Shown here: piece by piece, positions 2,586 through 45,951 of the stretch | Layout of the letters: every line of letters starts with the position of its first letter | How positions within the stretch are numbered: position 1 is the stretch's first letter | Program-made: the position numbers and the translations under genes | The notes under the pieces: generated by a model | Databases searched by the model: none | What the model saw: the letters and a program-made list of their open reading frames with translations, nothing else | What the model was told of the DNA's origin: nothing | Assembly (NCBI GenBank): GCA_030533445.1 | Contig: CM060076.1 | Coordinates: 26,584,603-26,648,602 of the forward strand | DNA from: Cyprinodon diabolis | Lineage: Eukaryota > Chordata > Actinopteri > Cyprinodontiformes > Cyprinodontidae | Length of the DNA stretch: 64,000 nt | Reading direction: 5' to 3'

Positions 2586-2697
2586 TGTTGGGATCTGGAG
2601 CTGTACCACCTTCCTCCAGCAGAGTGCGCCGTGGGTCTCCTGGAGCTGGAGTCTTCCAGCACACCTGAGACGTATCTACTCATCAGGAGACCTGCGC

Positions 2698-2739
2698 TTT
2701 ATAACCAGCTGCCAGACCTTGCTTCGACGCCGCAGTGTT
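2698..2739 (+). promoter_or_regulatory. LTR promoter of element 1 and predicted self-primer
   Basis: TTTATAA at 2,698-2,704 lies about 30 bp upstream of GCCGCAGTGTT (2,729-2,739). The same spacing and 11-mer occur in both LTRs of element 2, where the 11-mer is complementary to the primer binding site. The start site is inferred from TATA spacing, not measured. Confidence 0.65.
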
Positions 2740-2751
2740 GACCTTAGTTTG

Positions 2752-2840
2752 GTTAGCAACCTGAGACTTGAAACTGAAAGAATCTTAGCTGTCTCTTGAG
2801 AGAGATCAGATTCTAACTCTCTTCTGTTTTTGCCTCACAG
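2752..2840 (+). other. Intron-like segment 1 inside the LTR (89 nt)
   Basis: Starts GTTAGC and ends CCTCACAG. A CTAAC branch-point-like motif sits at 2,813-2,817, about 24 nt before the acceptor, followed by a pyrimidine-rich run (CTCTCTTCTGTTTTTGCC). Removing it joins AGTTTG to GAAACCTG, exactly the continuous sequence in both element 2 LTRs. It would lie about 23 nt after the predicted RNA start, within R. The donor is a weak match to consensus. That it is spliced is an inference. Confidence 0.62.
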
Positions 2841-3084
2841 GAAACCTGTCTCTAGCCTGAAGCTCTGGATGAGCTTAACCTGCCAATCTGCCCTGGAGAG
2901 CCAAACCTGGAGATTCCTATGTGGATGCCCCTGCTGCTCTTAGTTAAGAGCTGGAAACTCTGATCAAGGTCTGCCATTAAAGTCAGAGGCTAGACGCTGC
3001 AGCTGCTCTTGAACTCTGCTGAACAAACAGTCTCTGGACCCAACGGTTCCCTCTCTCTCTAAGAGAAGCCCGGATTCAGTCAAG

Positions 3085-3153
3085 GTATAATCCTGAATTA
3101 TCAAAGACTCATTCTCAGCAGCCTGCCTTCTAATCAAACTATCTTCTCAGCAG
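3085..3153 (+). other. Intron-like segment 2 inside the LTR (66-69 nt)
   Basis: Starts GTATAA after CAAG and ends in a tandem acceptor CTCAGCAG (AG at 3,150 or 3,153). A CTAAT motif at 3,130-3,134 can serve as branch point. Taking the second AG joins CAAG to ACTTCAGTG, and the stretch to CCAGCCC then has the same 22-nt length as in element 2, though with several substitutions. It is close to the minimum size of fish introns. Splicing is inferred. Confidence 0.55.
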
Positions 3154-3218
3154 ACTTCAGTGAACCAGCCCGGACCAGTTCCTGAACCAGTACATTGTCT
3201 TATGATTGTGAAACATTC

Positions 3219-3224
3219 AATAAA
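3219..3224 (+). terminator. Poly(A) signal of element 1 LTR
   Basis: AATAAA about 70 bp before the LTR end, matching the position of the AATAAA in both element 2 LTRs. Confidence 0.7.
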
Positions 3225-3295
3225 CCTTGTTAAACTTTTACCCAGCCTCCGTTGTGTTCTGCATGTGGGCTAAGAACCTTAAACCCATCATGACA

Positions 3296-4802: not shown

Positions 4803-5534
4803 ACCACTGGACTTTGTTTTCGAAGTTTGAAGACGTTTTTCTTCCCATCCAGGAAGCTTTTTCAATTCAAAATGTCTGGATTAGCGTTGAGTTTCAAGCT
4901 TTATAGAGTAGCCAGACAAAGCCGTGTTATGGATTAGGAAACATGCAAATTGAACCGAAAGAACAGGTCCGTCTCTTAGTAATGGGGAGTCATTGAGGTA
5001 GTTGTTGGCCTGCAATACTCGATACTGGTCTATGTTGGCCTGGCTGACCAGGTGAGATGTTTTGATCGCCTGCTTAGTGATGGGGGTTGAGGTGATAGCG
5101 GAATCAACTCTATCTCTATGTTGTAGGTTTTTGAGAGCTGGAACATGAGACCAACCCCTGTTTAAGTTTGTTTTTTCTCTCTAGACATAAATCGCTTCCT
5201 TCACACCCCCTCAAACAACAGAGGGGGTGGCCTATGCCCTTCTCAGAGGTATAGGCCAGTATTGGGTATTGCAGGCCAAAAACGACCTCCCTGTTACTAA
5301 GAGACGGACCTGTTCTTTGGGTTCAATTTGCATGTTTTCTAATTAATAACAAGGCTTTGTTGGGCTGCTCTATAAAGAATGGAACTCAACGCTAATCAAG
5401 ACATTTTGAATTGAAAAAGCTTCCCACTGGGAAGCAAAAGGTCTTCAAACTTGGAAAACAAAGTCCAGTGTATTGTTTTTTTTTTCCTTTTTTGGAATGA
5501 CTATGACCTGGAAGACATTTTCACCACCATCCAT
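4803..5534 (-). mobile_element. Penelope-like element remnant with long inverted repeats
   Basis: About 235 bp at 4,803-5,040 are repeated in inverse orientation at 5,235-5,472 with roughly 85% similarity by eye. Shared blocks include GGACTTTGTTTTC, GTTTGAAGAC, TTTTTCAATTCAAAATGTC and ACAGGTCCGTCTCTTAGTAA. The right copy runs on to about 5,534 with GACTATGACCTGGAAGAC. The central part read on the minus strand encodes GVKEAIYV (5,185-5,207) and, after a stop, NLNRG (near 5,155-5,170), matching what I know of the C-terminal GIY-YIG part of fish Penelope/Neptune proteins. Such elements often carry repeats in inverted orientation. The reverse transcriptase is missing, so it is not active. Confidence 0.68.
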
Positions 5535-14787: not shown

Positions 14788-15090
14788 CTTTCTGCATGGA
14801 GTTTGCATGTTCTCACTAGGCATGCAAAGGTTCTCTCCGGGTACTCTGGCTTCCTCCCACAGTCCCAAAACATGACTTTTAGGTTAATTGGCTTCTCTAA
14901 ATTCCCCTTGAGTGTGAGTGTGTGCGTGAATGGCTGTTTGTCCTGTTTGTCTTTGTCTTCCCCTGCGATGGACTCGCGACTTGTCCGGGGTGTATCCCGC
15001 CTATCACCTGTAGACAGCTGGAGATAGGCACCAGCAACCCTCGCGACCCCAGCAGGGATGAGCGTGACGGAAAATGGATGAAGAGTATGG
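14788..15090 (+). repeat. SINE/RTE-tail repeat, copy 1
   Basis: Reads CTGCATGGAGTTTGCATGTT, CTTCCTCCCACAGTCCC, TTAGGTTAATTGGCTTCTC, GCGATGGACTCGCGAC and GGAGATAGGCACCAGCAACC, ending near GAAAATGGATGAAG. The same blocks occur in the same order in the copy at 45,226-45,556, which still has a tRNA-like B box at its start and a GGAT tail. Overlapping ORFs here are by-products of this repeat. Confidence 0.78.
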
Positions 15091-22200: not shown

Positions 22201-23143
22201 AAATAAAAGATAGAACAGAAGGGAAAAATCTAAATAAAGTAGGGAGGAAGACATCCATAGGTCAGCTTGCTCATTTGCCAGCAGCAAGCTTCACAGCCTG
22301 TGGGTTGAAAATGTACTCCACAGGGTTCAAAAGCTCTGCTAAGTAAAGAAACAGACAAGACACAACGGCAGTGAGGGCAGGGGGAGGAAAAGGTGAAAAG
22401 AGAGAAAATTACCGGTTAGATCTCTGATCCTGAGACAGTGTAGTAAGAAATATACGCTGCCGTCTCACTGGGTGTTCTAACACAGTAAATCAATTTGCAT
22501 TGTTTTAATTTAAATTAAAATAAGTCTCTAATTGTACACATGGAATTATAAAAAATGTTATTATCCCTTCTGTAATGAATTTCTATAATTTTAATTCAGT
22601 CATTAGCTGGTGAAAACACATTTCATACAAAACTAAAATAACAATGATGAGGTACCCTTAGTGCCCTGACCTCATCCCAAGGACCATAGAAATAGTGTGT
22701 ACATGAATTAGAACCACAGGGTTTTAGGGTTTCTGGGGTTTTGCTGTTTTGTCAGGTGGGATTGATCTTCCTGTCAGAGAGGATCTTTGTTGATGTCTGG
22801 ACCGATCCGTGTTGCTGCACACATGAGAACATTTCCCTAACAAGATCCCTAGCGTGTATGTGAGGAGGATCATCAATCCTGCAAAAGACCTAAACCAGGA
22901 ATATGCTTCTTGTTGAAAATTGTCTTCTTGTGAATCTCAATCTTAATGTGGCCTCTGTTATTGTTCCAGAGAACCAGTGAACCCCAGTTCATCTATGATA
23001 TCAATGGAAAAGGTCTTACCTGTGTGTAGCAGTTCTCAGGCTTCATCCTCTGCCTGTTTTTTTTAAGCGCAACATCTCTTCAACTACCAACACTTTCTGA
23101 TCTCACTCTCATGGACCTCTGGGGTACAATCTGCAAAGCCAGC

Positions 23144-23468
23144 TTAACCCTGTAATGCCAAATGTATCATATTTGATACATACGGTTTCTGAAATGTTTT
23201 GCGTCTGACACCTTTTGCATAATTTAATGGTAAAAAACTTTGCTCAAAATCCTATTGTACAAAATCAGATATACCTGATAACAGAGGGCAGAAGACTACA
23301 CAAAACATAATCTTGACTTATCACATAGAAATAAATTATTAATATCAAAAATGTATTTCTGTTTTTTTCTTTTTACATATTTTGTTAAAAGGCCAAATAA
23401 GGACTTCAAACCAAAAAAAAGTAATTTTCTGTTTTGTTTTATTCTTGCATCGGGCTTTAAAGGGTTAA
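23144..23468 (+). mobile_element. piggyBac-type MITE, copy A
   Basis: Flanked by TTAA at 23,144-23,147 and 23,465-23,468. The 317-bp core starts CCCTGTAATGCC and ends GGGCTTTAAAGGG, so the ends are inverted CCCT(G/T)TAA...GCC-type repeats. TTAA target duplication with CCC...GGG ends is the piggyBac signature. A near-palindrome TGTATCATATTTGATACA lies near the left end. It has no coding capacity. The same family is present at 45,665-45,951. Confidence 0.85.
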
Positions 23469-37675: not shown

Positions 37676-37910
37676 TATATTAATTTTTTTCAGCTGGGTG
37701 AAACTGAGAGCACAGGGACCAGAAGACAATAAAGCCAAAAGGAAACAACCCAAACAAGCTGACGTTGACAGATTCTGTTGACTTCTAATGTAAGGCTCTT
37801 GTTGGGATCTGGAGCTGTACCACCTTCCTCCAGCAGAGTGCGCCGTGGTTCTCCAAGGGCTGGAGTCTTCCAGCACACCTGAGGCGCATCTCCTCATCAG
37901 AGACCTGCCC

Positions 37911-37952
37911 TATATAACCAGCTGCCAGACCTTGCTTCGACGCCGCAGTGTT
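37911..37952 (+). promoter_or_regulatory. LTR promoter and RNA 5' end that acts as self-primer
   Basis: TATATAA at 37,911-37,917. About 31 bp from its first base begins GCCGCAGTGTT (37,942-37,952), the predicted first 11 nt of the RNA, an exact reverse complement of 38,353-38,363. The start is predicted from TATA spacing. Confidence 0.72.
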
Positions 37953-38273
37953 GAACTAGTTTGGAAACCTGTCTCTACCTGAGGCTCTGGATGAGCTTAA
38001 CCTGCCGAGATAGCCCTCGTGAGCCAAACCTGAAGATTCCTTTGTGGACTCCGCTGCTGCTCTTGGCTAAGAGCCTGAAACTCAGATCAAGGTCTGCCTT
38101 CAAAGTCAGAAGCAAGACGCTGCAGCAACTCTAGGACTCTGCTGAACAAACAGTCTCTGGACCCAACAGTTCCTTCTCTCTCAAAGAGAAGCCCGGACAC
38201 CCTCAAGACTCAATTGTTCCAGCCCTGACCAGTTCCAGTTCCAGTTTATGATCTTGTGTTTTGTGCAAACCAA

Positions 38274-38279
38274 AATAAA
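38274..38279 (+). terminator. Poly(A) signal in the 5' LTR of element 2
   Basis: AATAAA upstream of a TTGTGTTCTG stretch. The functional copy for the element's own RNA is the one in the 3' LTR (43,201-43,206). Confidence 0.65.
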
Positions 38280-38352
38280 CTCTGTTAAACTTTTCACCCA
38301 GCCTCTGTTGTGTTCTGCATATGGGCTTGAAGCTTTAGACCCATCATGACAG

Positions 38353-38363
38353 AACACTGCGGC
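38353..38363 (+). promoter_or_regulatory. Self-priming primer binding site
   Basis: AACACTGCGGC begins two bases after the LTR end. It does not start with TGG, so it does not look like a tRNA-3'-end site. It is complementary over exactly 11 nt to the predicted RNA 5' end at 37,942-37,952. The fission yeast element Tf1 and its vertebrate sushi relatives are known or proposed to prime minus-strand synthesis from their own RNA 5' end in this way. Confidence 0.75.
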
Positions 38364-39376
38364 CAAACACAAGGCCCAGCAGATAACCTCCGTCGGAGGC
38401 TTGAGGAGCAAGACGCTCAGATCCATGGACATGCGCAAACCCTCCGTGAGTTACATACCATGATTGAATACCACAACCAAATGCTTCAAACATATGCTAG
38501 CTACATGGGCAATGCTAACGCCATGTCAGCGGCACGTCCAGTTCCGGGTCCACTTCCGCCTCCGAGGTCACCGGTCGTGACGTCATCTCCTGAATTCAGA
38601 CCCAGTCTGCCTGAAAAATTCTCAGGTAACCAGAAGGATTGTAAGGGATTTTTGTTTCAATGTCGACTCATTTTTGAACACTCTCCTGGCAGTTTTTCAA
38701 CTGATAGAAAAATGATTACATTTATTTTGTCCCAACTCACTGGGCGAGCCCTAGAATGGGCGGAGGCAAGGTTCTCTTCTGAAGTCAGTTTCAGGTGTAC
38801 TTTTTCTGATTTTGTCTCTGAATTTTCCCAGGTATTTAATCATGACTCTGATCAAACCTTTGACTCCCGAGCTCTGCTAAATTTGAAACCGGGAAATTCC
38901 ACAGTGGCGGAGTTTTCCATCGACTTCCGGGTAAAAGCTGCAGCCTCTGGATGGAACGAATGTGCACTGAAGAGTGCATATTTTAAGGCCCTAAATGACA
39001 ATATCAAGGATGAACTAGCTACGCTCGACGAACCAGCTAGTTTAGAGGAATTGATCCGTTTAACCATTAGATTAGACAACAGACTTCGAGCTAGAAGCAG
39101 CTCTAGACAAAAAAGTCTACATATTTCTGTGCCTGCTCCTGCATTAAATAATGCTTCTGTTTTTTCTGGATCCACAGAGCCTGTTTTCAAGCCAAAATCT
39201 AAGAATCAGACTTATTCTGTTCCTGTCCAAATCTCCCACTCAGATTGAACGGGGGTCGAACCCATGCAGATTGGACACACAAGGCTAACCCCTGAGGAAA
39301 GACAACGACGTTTCAGGGGCAATCTGTGTCTATATTGTGGTGAGACTGGTCATTTCATTGCTTCTTGCCCGGCTAA

Positions 39377-39407
39377 GTCAAAAGCCTGGGTCCGTCAGAG
39401 GAACTGA
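39377..39407 (+). other. gag/pol overlap, likely -1 frameshift region
   Basis: The pol frame is open from 39,377 (after TAA at 39,374) and gag ends at 39,407, so the frames overlap by 31 nt in the -1 relation. GAGGAAC at 39,398-39,404 sits directly before the gag stop. It differs at two positions from the GGGAAAC slippery site I know from the sushi-derived gene PEG10. Frameshifting here is inferred. Confidence 0.45.
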
Positions 39408-42400
39408 GGAGTCTGACGGGCCATTTGAAAACTGAAAAGTCTCCTCATCTGATGCTACCTGCCACTCTTTTTTTTTCTAACCAGAATCTCACCTTGTCTG
39501 CTTTCGTTGACTCTGGATGTGAGCGTAACCTTATTGACTCTAACCTGGTCCAGCAGTTACAAATTGAAACAGTTCCGTTATCCAAGCCTCTCAGTGTCTC
39601 AGCTATTAATGGAAAGAAACTCCATCAAGTTACTCATCAAACACAACCTCTAGAGCTGTTAATCTCCGGAAAACATCGTGAGACATTAACCTTTTTTGTT
39701 TTTCCATCTGCATGCTCTCCCTTGGTGCTTGGTTTTGAGTGGCTGGAGCGACATAACCCCCATATCAACTGGGCTGAACGCCACATTGAGTCTTGGTCTA
39801 CTTCCTGCCATGAGACTTGTCTTCGTTCCGCAGCTCCCGCTGTTCAGTTCCTTAGAGGTAGGGGGGAGATGGACTCTCCTGACCTTACTTCTGTTCCTTC
39901 CGAGTATCATGATCTGGCTCCAGTCTTCAGCAAGGTCAGTGCTACGTCTCTTCCACCTCACAGACCATATGACTGTGCCATTGAGCTATTACCAGGTGCT
40001 CCCTTGCCCAGCAGTAGACTTTATAACATCTCCAAGCCTGAACGTGAGACCATGGAAAAATATATTAACGAGTCTCTAGCTGCTGGGATAATCCGTCCAT
40101 CTTCTTCCCCTCTGGGTGCTGGTTTCTTTTTTGTGGGCAAGAAAGATGGTTCCCTACAACCCTGTATTGACTACAGAGGCCTTAACCAAATAACTGTCAA
40201 AAATAAATACCCACTTCCGTTACTAGCATCCGCATTTGAACCTGTTCAGGGGGCTACAGTCTTCACCAAGCTCGATTTAAGAAACGCTTGTCATCTTCTC
40301 CGGATAAGAGAAGGTGACGAATGGAAAACAGCCTTTGAGACCCCTTTAGGTCATTTTGAGTATCTGGTCATGCCTTTTGGTCTCACAAACCCTCCTGCAT
40401 GTTTTCAAGCACTTGTCAATGATGTCCTCAGAGATTTTTTGAATATTTTCGTGTTTGTTTACATTGACGACATTTTGATCTACTCCAAGAACCTTTCTGA
40501 GCATAAAAAACATGTCCGCTTGGTCCTTCAAAGACTGTTGGAAAATAAGCTTTTTGTTAAAGCTGAAAAATGTGAGTTTCACCAACCATCTGTCACCTTT
40601 TTAGGGTTTGTGCTCGAGGGCGGGCAGGTTAAGCCATCCGAAGACAAGATTAAGGCAGTTTTGGACTGGCCGACACCTGAGAACCGCAAACAGCTGCAGA
40701 GATTCGTTGGTTTTGCAAACTTCTACAGACGTTTCATCAGGAACTACAGTCAGACAGCTCTACCTCTCACAACTCTAACCTCTGTTAAAAGAGCCTTTCA
40801 ATGGACTCCGGAGGCGCAAAGAGCCTTTGAGCAATTAAAGACCCTGTTTTCCAGAGCTCCTATTTTGATCCAGCCAGATCCTGCTAAACAGTTTATCCTT
40901 CAAGTGGATGCCTCTGACTCTGGTGTTGGTGCAGTGTTGTCCCAACAACTCGACTCTGATCAAAGGATTCACCCCTGTGCCTTTTTCTCCCGTAGACTCT
41001 CACCAGCAGAACAAAACTACGATGTTGGGGACCGTGAACTTCTAGCAATCAAACTCGCCTTGGAGGAGTGGAGACACTGGCTCGAGGGGGCCGAGCATCC
41101 AGTTTTGGTGTGGACCGATCACAAGAACCTAGCTTATCTCCAGTCCGCCAAACAGGCTAACCCACGTCACTCCAGATGGTCTTTGTTTTTCTCCCGATTC
41201 AATCTCATAATCTCTTACAGACCCGGTTCCAAGAACATCAAACCCGATTCTCTCTCTCGTCTTTATTCTGCTGATCAACCTGAGACGCCTGAACCTGTTC
41301 TTCCTGCCTCCTGTACTGTTGGAGTGGTTTCCTGGGAGATCACGGATCTCATAAACTCTGCCCTAGCTTCTGAACCTGACCCAGGTAACGGTCCTCCTAA
41401 CAAGACCTATGTCCCTTCTTCTGTCAGATCCCGTTTGATCCAGTGGATGCATACAGCCAAGTTTTCCGCTCACCCGGGAGTGAGCCGAACAATCGCCCTG
41501 ATTTCTAGACGTTTCTGGTGGCCATCTTTACACAAAGATGTAAAGGAGTACGTATTGGCATGTTCCATCTGCGCCAGAAACAAAGCCTCACACCAACCAC
41601 CTTCTGGTCTGTTGCATCCCCTACCTGTTCCTGCTCGCACCTGGTCTCACATCGCCATCGATTTTGTCACTGGTCTCCCAATCTCCCGAGGTATGTCCAC
41701 CATTTTTACCATCGTCGACTGTTTCTCCAAGTCTTGTCATCTTATTCCCCTCAGAAAACTTCCCACGGCCTTCCAGACTGTACAGCTTCTGGTGAAGCAT
41801 GTCTTCCGGCTCCATGGAATCCCTCAGGAAATACTCTCTGACCGTGGTCCTCAGTTCATCTCCCAAGTCTGGAAGGCCTTCTGCTCCACACTAAACTGTA
41901 AGTCGTCACTTACTTCTGGCTATCATCCACAGTCCAACGGGCAGACGGAGAGGATGAACCAACAGCTTGAGTCCACTCTCCACTGCCTAACCTCAAACAA
42001 CCCCACTGACTGGAGTCAGTACCTAACCTGGATCAAGTACGCCCACAACTCTCTCAAATCAGCTTCCACCGGTTTATCCCCATTCCAGGTTAGTCTCGGT
42101 TATCAGCCTCCACTTTTTCCTGCAGACGAGAGAGAGATCTCGGTCCATTCAGTCAACCATCACATCCGTCGCTGTCAGAAGATCTGGAAGGACACCATCG
42201 CCACCCTCAACCGTTCTTCCTGGTCCACTAAACATTTTGCAGACTCCAAGAGATGCACAGCCCCCCAGTACTCCATTGGCCAAGAGGTATGGCTCTCCAC
42301 ACGAGACATTCCCTTGAGGGGAATGTCTCGGAAACTGTCCCCGCGATTCATTGGCCCCTACAAGGTAGCCCAGATTATAAACCCTTCTGCCGTACGTCTA

Positions 42401-42556
42401 CACCTTCCTCCGAGTCTCCGTATCCATCCTACGTTCCACGTCTCCCAGATCAAGCCTGTTGTCTCTAGCCCCCTGTGCCCTCCATCCGACTCCCCTCCAC
42501 CCGCCCTGGACATCGATGGACATACTGCCTTCACCGTCCGCCGGATCGTGGACTAA
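39377..42556 (+). CDS. pol polyprotein of element 2 (protease, RT, RNase H, integrase), 3' truncated
   Basis: About 1,043 codons from the in-frame TTG at 39,425, but probably entered by frameshift, so no start is assigned. Numbering from 39,425: aspartic protease FVDSG (Asp29) and VLGFEWL; reverse transcriptase with TKLDLRNA (Asp284) and YIDD (346-349); RNase H with Asp495, Glu538 and Asp565; integrase zinc region His676, His683, Cys713, Cys716; DDE core Asp746, Asp806, Glu842 (35 residues between the last two). C-terminal NPHINW and PRFIGPYKV fit the sushi group. The frame stops at TAA 42,554, where the chromodomain should begin. Two conserved RT positions differ from element 1 (Gln for Arg in GSLQPCIDY; Cys for Tyr in RNACHL). 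Confidence 0.92.
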
Positions 42557-42720
42557 CGTCGGCGAGGTCGCGGTTGGCAGTACCTCGTCGATTGGGAGGG
42601 CTACGGTCCGGAGGATCGCACATGGGTGCCCGGCTCTTACATCCTCGATCCTTCGCTGATCGAGGAGTACGAGAGCTCCCTCCCGTCGACGTCTTCTGGA
42701 CCCCCAAGAGGCGGTCGTTG
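42557..42720 (+). pseudogene. Chromodomain remnant after the pol stop
   Basis: In the pol frame directly after TAA 42,554-42,556 the sequence reads [17 protein letters not shown], then VPGSYIL and IEEYESS, ending at TGA near 42,720. The aromatic-rich [11 protein letters not shown] pattern is a chromodomain, the module by which chromovirus integrases choose chromatin targets. It cannot be made from this copy without passing the stop. Element 1 has lost the same region by deletion. Confidence 0.85.
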
Positions 42721-42730
42721 AGAGGGGGGT
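42719..42730 (+). promoter_or_regulatory. Polypurine tract
   Basis: TGAGAGGGGGGT directly before the 3' LTR; the matching run in element 1 is at 2,572-2,583. It primes plus-strand synthesis in LTR elements. It overlaps the end of the chromodomain frame. Confidence 0.8.
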
Positions 42731-42732
42731 AC

Positions 42733-43278
42733 TGTTAGGATCTGGAGCTGTACCACCTTCCTCCAGCAGAGTGCGCCGTGGTTCTCCAAGGGCTGGAGTC
42801 TTCCAGCATACCTGAGGCGCATCTCCTCATCAGAGACCTGCCCTATATAACCAGCTGCCAGACCTTGCTTCGACGCCGCAGTGTTGACCTAGTTTGGAAA
42901 CCTGTCTCTACCTGAGGCTCTGGATGAGCTTACCCTTCCGAGATAGCCCTCGTGAGCCAAACCTGAAGATTCCTTTGTGGACTCCCCTGCTGCTCTTGGC
43001 TAAGAGCCTGAAACTCAGATCAAGGTCTGCCTTCAAAGTCAGAAGCAAGACGCTGCAGCAACTCTAGGACTCTGCTGAACAAACTGTCTCTGGACCCAAC
43101 AGTTCCTTCTCTCTCAAAGAGAAGCCCGGACACCCTCAAGAGTCCAGTGTTCCAGCCCTGACCAGTTCCAGTTTATGATCTTGTGTTTTGTGCAAACCAA
43201 AATAAACTCTGTTAAACTTTTCACCCAGCCTCTGTTGTGTTCTGCATATGGGCTTGAAGCTTTAGACCCATCATGACA
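42733..43278 (+). repeat. 3' LTR of element 2 (546 bp)
   Basis: TGTTAGGATCTGG ... CCATCATGACA, with TATATAA at 42,844-42,850, GCCGCAGTGTT at 42,875-42,885 and AATAAA at 43,201-43,206. It lacks both intron-like segments seen in the element 1 LTR. Confidence 0.95.
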
Positions 43279-45225: not shown

Positions 45226-45556
45226 AGGTTCGATTCCCGGCCCGGGATCTTTCTGCACGGAGTTTGCATGTTCTCCCTGAGCATGCGTGGCTTCTCTACG
45301 GGTACTCCGGCTTCCTCCCACAGTCCAAAAACATTACTGTTAGGTTAATTGGCTTCTCATTCCCCTTAGGTGTGAGTGTGTGTGAGTGGTTGTTTGTCCT
45401 GTTTGTCTCTGTGTTGCCCTGCGATGGACTGGCGACCTGTCCAGGGTGTACCCCGCCTCTCGCCCAATGACTGCTGGAGATAGGCACCAGCACCCCTCGC
45501 TAACCCACTTGGGATAAGTGTGTAAGAAAAAATGGATGGATGGATAGATAGATAGT
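45226..45556 (+). repeat. SINE/RTE-tail repeat, copy 2
   Basis: Starts with AGGTTCGATTCCCGG, a tRNA-type B box (GGTTCGANTCC), then CGGAGTTTGCATGTTCTCC, CTTCCTCCCACAGTCC, GCGATGGACTGGCGACC and GGAGATAGGCACCAGCACCC, ending in AAAAATGGATGGATGGATAG. A tRNA-like head and a tail shared with RTE LINEs suggest a SINE mobilised by an RTE-type partner. The tRNA head is truncated before the A box. It is better preserved than the copy at 14,788-15,090. Confidence 0.78.
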
Positions 45557-45664
45557 TCATGCTGTACTATGGCGACAAAATGGCATTTAATGCAAACTTA
45601 TTATTGTGTTAATAAAGGAAAAATATTGATAAGGTCCTTATTTTGCAGTCTTCTCTTTCCTCCC

Positions 45665-45951
45665 TTAACCCTGTAATGCCAAATGTATCATATTTGATAG
45701 ATACGGTTTCTGAAATGTTTTGCGTCTGACACCTTTTGCATAATTTAATGGTAAAAACTTTGCTCAAAATCATATTGTACACAATCAGATATACCTGATA
45801 ACAGAGGGCAGAAGACTACACAAAAAATAATCTTGACTTATCACATAGTAATAAATTATTAATATCAAAAATGTATTTCTGTTTTATCTTTTTACATAAA
45901 AAAGTAATTTTCTGTTTTGTTTTATTCTTGGATCGGGCTTTAAAGGGTTAA
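45665..45951 (+). mobile_element. piggyBac-type MITE, copy B
   Basis: TTAA at 45,665-45,668 and 45,948-45,951 around a 279-bp core that begins CCCTGTAATGCC and ends GGGCTTTAAAGGG. It is nearly identical to copy A but lacks about 37 bp in the right half (the part around GGCCAAATAAGGACTTC in copy A). Confidence 0.85.

Follow-up and report, generated by a model that had tools for sequence, protein, structure and literature searches.

Two predicted introns inside the long terminal repeat of a Tf1/sushi-type retrotransposon and their probable loss from a sister element through a spliced RNA

The DNA analyzed here is a stretch of 64,000 nucleotides (nt) from Cyprinodon diabolis (contig CM060076.1, positions 26,584,603 to 26,648,602; the window), which contains two long terminal repeat (LTR) retrotransposons, referred to as E1 and E2. 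Only the 3′ part of E1 lies inside the window, up to position 3295, with its own 5′ LTR and primer site beyond the window. E2 is a complete insertion (37800-43278) with the 5′ terminus TGTTGGG and the 3′ terminus CATGACA, and GCTCT is found on either flank as a 5-bp target duplication. The two LTRs of E2 are identical at 536 of 546 aligned positions, and the aligned coding parts of E1 and E2 at 2206 of 2559. The 3′ LTR of E1 carries two intron-like blocks, block 1 and block 2, which are missing from both LTRs of E2 (Table 1) and which we interpret as probable introns belonging to the LTR itself.

Separate pieces of E2 matched the Pfam families Ty3_capsid, DUF4939, protease, reverse transcriptase (RT), RNase H, integrase, SH3_Tf2-1 and Chromo, the last of these past a stop codon, and the Ty3/gypsy domain order with a chromodomain after integrase is present in the element. 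The stop (42554-42556) ends the pol frame just ahead of the chromodomain, which is therefore cut off in this copy. At the other end of E2 the predicted gag start lies in the last bases of the 5′ LTR, so that the primer binding site falls within the gag reading frame (region 38346-38363). The only match of the E2 gag in the PDB at E ≤ 0.001 was to PEG10 (7lga, E = 6.3e-8). Among the 102 gag relatives listed, the organism names down to rank 59 were Cyprinodon, Xiphophorus, Poecilia, Kryptolebias and Fundulus, and those beyond that rank are other ray-finned fish. The predicted primer binding site is the exact complement of an 11-nt sequence in the LTR whose first base lies 31 nt past the start of the TATA box; by comparison, 37 of 5000 random 40-mers from the window matched 11 nt anywhere in the LTR. 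In Tf1 self-priming, 11 nt of the RNA 5′ end serve as the primer. On the evidence of its self-complementary primer site, its domains (chromodomain and Tf2-1-type SH3 among them) and its PEG10-like gag, all of which it has in common with the Tf1/sushi group, E2 is a Tf1/sushi-type Ty3/gypsy element. Self-priming is described for this group in the accessible part of a published account (PMC6317226).

The same 11-mer is present in the E1 LTR, likewise 31 nt from the start of a TATA-like box. From the spacing of self-primer and TATA-like box, the RNA of E1 is predicted to start at about position 2729, which would give a first exon of 23 nt and, with AATAAA at 3219, would place both blocks within R, the region present at each RNA end. 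A preliminary description of this DNA, made from its letters, had located both blocks in R, between the predicted start and the poly(A) site, and the self-primer, the TATA spacing and AATAAA bear this out. Neither block contains an ATG, and the blocks thus neither add nor remove upstream starts. Folding of the leaders gave no clear support for the introns helping to expose the primer.

In a three-way alignment of the LTRs, the sole gaps longer than 6 nt correspond to blocks 1 and 2, with both blocks present in E1 and neither of them in either E2 LTR. Trimmed ends aside, the remaining gaps are of 1 nt each, plus one 6-nt gap confined to the E2 3′ LTR. Block 1 was drawn by MAFFT as a 90-nt gap because an adjacent 1-nt gap was fused with it, and block 2 as a gap of 69 nt. 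Each block can be placed at three equivalent border positions that give the same product, one of the three being GT...AG, and only 2 shiftable bases per block are common to the borders. A GT...AG border was found in 0.43% of 200,000 random 89- or 69-nt blocks from the window, and therefore in about 2e-5 for two blocks taken as a product. The coding parts served as a control: their 2559 aligned positions contain four gaps of at least 2 nt, all of them absences in E1, and none of the four is GT...AG as aligned. Within the compared DNA, blocks 1 and 2 are therefore the only segments of at least 2 nt that the 5′ LTR and coding part of E2 lack relative to E1.

The preliminary description had reported the E1 LTR and the E2 5′ LTR as colinear save for the two blocks, with GT and AG at the block ends, CTAAC or CTAAT 20-25 nt ahead of those ends, and pyrimidine-rich acceptors. 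These claims agree with the three-way alignment, with one of the three equivalent borders of each block, with the branch-like motifs and with the acceptor ranks given below, and its arithmetic (710 − 89 − 69 = 552) is correct, a few 1-nt indels cancelling. It had also described an exact junction on removal of block 1 and a 22-nt stretch of equal length on removal of block 2. The borders are sharp at block 1, where local blastn alignments extend to the border on the left and on the right, and less firm at block 2, where the left alignment ends 10 nt before the border and the right one begins at the border. The segment to the right of block 2 is identical at 51 of 72 positions, the most diverged among the five LTR segments compared.

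Splice sites were scored with vertebrate site frequencies and ranked against the 3917 AGs and 3250 GTs of the window. The block 1 acceptor was in the top 0.08% and that of block 2 in the top 6.4% of AGs, and block 1 ranked first among the 244 possible introns of the E1 LTR (donor-acceptor pairs, 60-200 nt). Both blocks share with U2-type introns the GT...AG ends, a branch-like motif and a pyrimidine-rich acceptor. Their G+C content (block 1, 40%; block 2, 39%) is below that of exon 2 (51%) and not below that of exon 3 (40%). Separately, a sequence that is conserved between E1 (3226-3245) and the matching E2 LTR end, TTAAACTTTT(n)ACCCAG, lies right after AATAAA and resembles either a further acceptor, which would be the third, or a motif related to poly(A) addition.

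Based on these comparisons, we consider it probable (roughly 0.78) that the blocks are spliceosomal introns contained entirely in the predicted R of a Tf1/sushi-type LTR, and that E2 descends from a doubly spliced RNA. The preliminary description had arrived at a similar interpretation, which stands as far as two intron-like blocks in R are concerned, gone at GT/AG borders from both sister LTRs; the splicing of the blocks and the descent of E2 from a spliced RNA are what we strongly infer from the sequence. In LTR elements, DNA synthesis begins on the 5′ R, and this first copy, once transferred to the 3′ R, supplies the R of both new LTRs. A single round of reverse transcription on an RNA whose leader had lost both introns by splicing would thus yield two intron-free LTRs, as in E2. 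One known route would account for both exact losses together, which is a simpler course than two exact gains or than two deletions with GT/AG ends by chance. The introns can have lasted in the line of E1 only if the copied RNA was usually unspliced. Their role may be that of promoter-proximal introns aiding expression or export; alternatively, they may allow the U1 small nuclear ribonucleoprotein (U1 snRNP) to keep the 5′ LTR from being used for poly(A) addition, as shown for foamy viruses (PMC3694450). A more far-reaching proposal, which we regard as doubtful, is that of a self-erasing system in which the R introns are kept, protein is made from spliced RNA and normally only unspliced RNA is copied, with one spliced RNA that slipped into the particle having founded the intron-free E2 lineage.

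Several observations weigh against introns lost through a spliced RNA. The comparison is between a single intron-bearing LTR (E1) and a single intron-free insertion (E2), and the direction of the change, loss and not gain, is drawn from the mechanism. The donors are modest (top 10% of window GTs for block 1, top 16% for block 2), block 2 ranks 15th among the 244 pairs, and the 12 best pairs listed include two in R, 2969-3063 and 2982-3063, that have no site in common with either block. Moreover, when other DNA of the window was cut into 338 half-overlapping 710-nt tiles (on both strands and with E2 among them), 48 tiles contained a pair that equalled or exceeded the score of block 1, and the antisense reading of the E1 LTR has a best pair of 15.0 vs. 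17.4, so that the score by itself is not rare. What carries the case is therefore less the scores alone than the fact that the gaps of the sister element coincide with the top-ranked pair and with a plausible second pair. Block 2 is placed with less certainty than block 1. Its borders lie in diverged sequence, and TTCAGT flanks this block on both sides, at distances of 4 and 2 nt from its borders. The first exon, of only 23 nt, would be short. Finally, fold prediction for the E2 leader does not favour pairing between the primer site and the RNA 5′ end (of 11 pairs, 0.22 are expected), and the argument for self-priming is therefore one of complementarity and position.

Of the alternatives considered, the most probable one concerns function and is compatible with introns lost through a spliced RNA. 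On this view the blocks are spliced, but mainly serve to provide a U1 snRNP site in R through which poly(A) addition in the 5′ LTR is prevented, splicing being a by-product. The predicted donors of E1 do lie in R upstream of AATAAA, an arrangement tied to 5′ poly(A) suppression in foamy virus in the accessible part of PMC3694450. However, the donors are modest, and the block-free E2 lineage still yielded an insertion, from which it follows that the sites are not essential; we therefore consider this role unlikely to be the main one.

A second alternative is that the blocks were gained in the lineage of E1, as introns or as introner-like insertions, and that E2 represents the older state. In its favour are the direction of the change, which is drawn from the mechanism only, and TTCAGT close to both borders of block 2. 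However, neither block has inverted ends or an abutting duplication, and apart from matches of 10-14 nt the blocks resemble neither each other nor the rest of the window; no second copy of either block sequence was found within the window. Both E2 LTRs also retain, between the flanks matching block 2, TCAAG and then AC or AG (TCAAGA or TCAAGAG), bases that the empty site of such an insertion would not have. E2 is therefore not the empty site of a TTCAGT-flanked insertion, and the TTCAGT repeat is taken as chance. Gain would in addition require two separate exact events against one loss, and we judge it improbable. Least probable, by a small step, is the explanation that the E2 lineage lost the blocks through ordinary deletions of DNA, or through template jumps of the reverse transcriptase, with coincidental GT/AG ends: LTRs often lose segments, the E1 coding part has its four gaps relative to E2 and the block 2 borders sit in diverged sequence, but both blocks have a GT...AG border expected for 0.43% each by chance, none of the four internal gaps has such ends as aligned, the borders have only 2 shiftable bases per block and block 1 is the top-ranked of all possible introns of the LTR.

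The founding paper on vertebrate sushi elements is reportedly that of Butler and others in 2001. Foamy virus acceptors lie downstream, outside the LTR, whereas the predicted donors and acceptors of E1 are all in R, which would place whole introns inside the LTR. The likeness of E1 to foamy viruses is in the donors: the accessible part of PMC3694450 describes a donor site that precedes the poly(A) signal within R, linked to suppression of 5′ poly(A) addition, and in E1 the predicted donors at 2752 and 3085 are upstream of AATAAA at 3219. E1 resembles the foamy viruses in this arrangement of R and is not a member of them, the domains of its sister element E2 being Ty3/gypsy. In the accessible part of the sushi LTR model (PMC3601003), introns in R are not described, with ‘intron’ occurring once, in the references, and ‘splice’ nowhere. 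For the LTR retrotransposons Ogre, EVADE and Cer1, RNA is described in a spliced as well as an unspliced form (accessible parts of PMC6317226 and PMC12786077), so that introns in LTR retrotransposons are known, as is a splice donor in R from foamy viruses. In Ogre, unlike E1, the intron is situated between coding regions and not in the LTR (accessible part of PMC6317226). Artificial intron reporters, such as intron-marked Ty elements, reveal retrotransposition by the loss of an intron via RNA (accessible part of PMC12786077). The counterpart in E1 would be a natural marker situated in R, and one spliced leader would therefore clear both LTRs.

Phrase matches for an intron within an LTR included an ltrB gene, an engineered vector and a review's ‘spliced LTR-RTE’, which were set aside. 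No description of an intron wholly inside an LTR, and none of two whole introns in R jointly lost in a sister lineage, was found among the papers listed by the literature searches, in which subscription papers are under-represented. If the introns and their loss are true, one spliced genome strips an R intron from both LTRs, and survival of the introns would mean that the element separates the RNA that is translated from the RNA that is copied. Every genomic LTR would then be a natural readout of the RNA form that was reverse-transcribed, countable without experiment. Genes that were domesticated from sushi elements may also have such introns as a natural supply for their 5′ leaders.

Table 1. 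Positions of E1 and E2 features in the window.
Feature	Position	Strand	Remarks
E1 3′ LTR	2586..3295	+	710 nt, TG...CA; carries both intron-like blocks
E1 TATA-like TTTATAA	2698..2704	+	LTR position 113
E1 predicted exon 1	2729..2751	+	23 nt; first 11 nt GCCGCAGTGTT, predicted self-primer and RNA 5′ end
E1 block 1, predicted intron 1	2752..2840	+	89 nt, GT...AG; branch-like TTCTAAC 24 nt before end
E1 predicted exon 2	2841..3084	+	244 nt; 212/243 aligned positions identical to E2
E1 block 2, predicted intron 2	3085..3153	+	69 nt, GT...AG; branch-like TTCTAAT 20 nt before end; CAGCAG acceptor
E1 AATAAA poly(A) signal	3219..3224	+	downstream of both blocks
E2 5′ LTR	37800..38351	+	552 nt, without both blocks
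E2 TATATAA	37911..37917	+	TATA box
E2 predicted self-primer GCCGCAGTGTT	37942..37952	+	exact complement of primer binding site, 11/11 nt
E2 gag frame	38346..39248	+	Ty3_capsid, DUF4939; solved-structure match PEG10
E2 predicted gag start codon	38346..38348	+	inside final 6 nt of 5′ LTR
E2 predicted primer binding site AACACTGCGGC	38353..38363	+	one base past 5′ LTR
E2 pol frame	39377..42556	+	protease, RT, RNase H, integrase, Tf2-1-type SH3; stop directly before chromodomain
E2 chromodomain piece	42557..42721	+	past the stop codon
E2 3′ LTR	42733..43278	+	546 nt, without both blocks

Searches for further copies were conducted in several sequence collections. Each of two LTR patterns gave 0 matches in the viral contig collection, two protein scans of the viral contigs gave 8 pattern matches each with 0 confirmed, and there was no match in the plasmid collection. 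One 20-mer had a single match in genome contigs, to the bacterial contig JAAEQG010000574.1, which was rejected as chance since the match stops at the end of the 20-mer. Other repeats were also observed in the window. A pair of about 230 nt (23143-23373 and 45664-45893), 95-99% identical and 22.5 kb apart, is a recent repeat, and a second pair of 161 nt (14914-15074 and 45370-45530) is 81% identical. Two 138-nt inverted arms (4852-4989 and 5287-5424), 90% complementary and with 297 nt between them, resemble a small inverted-repeat transposon.
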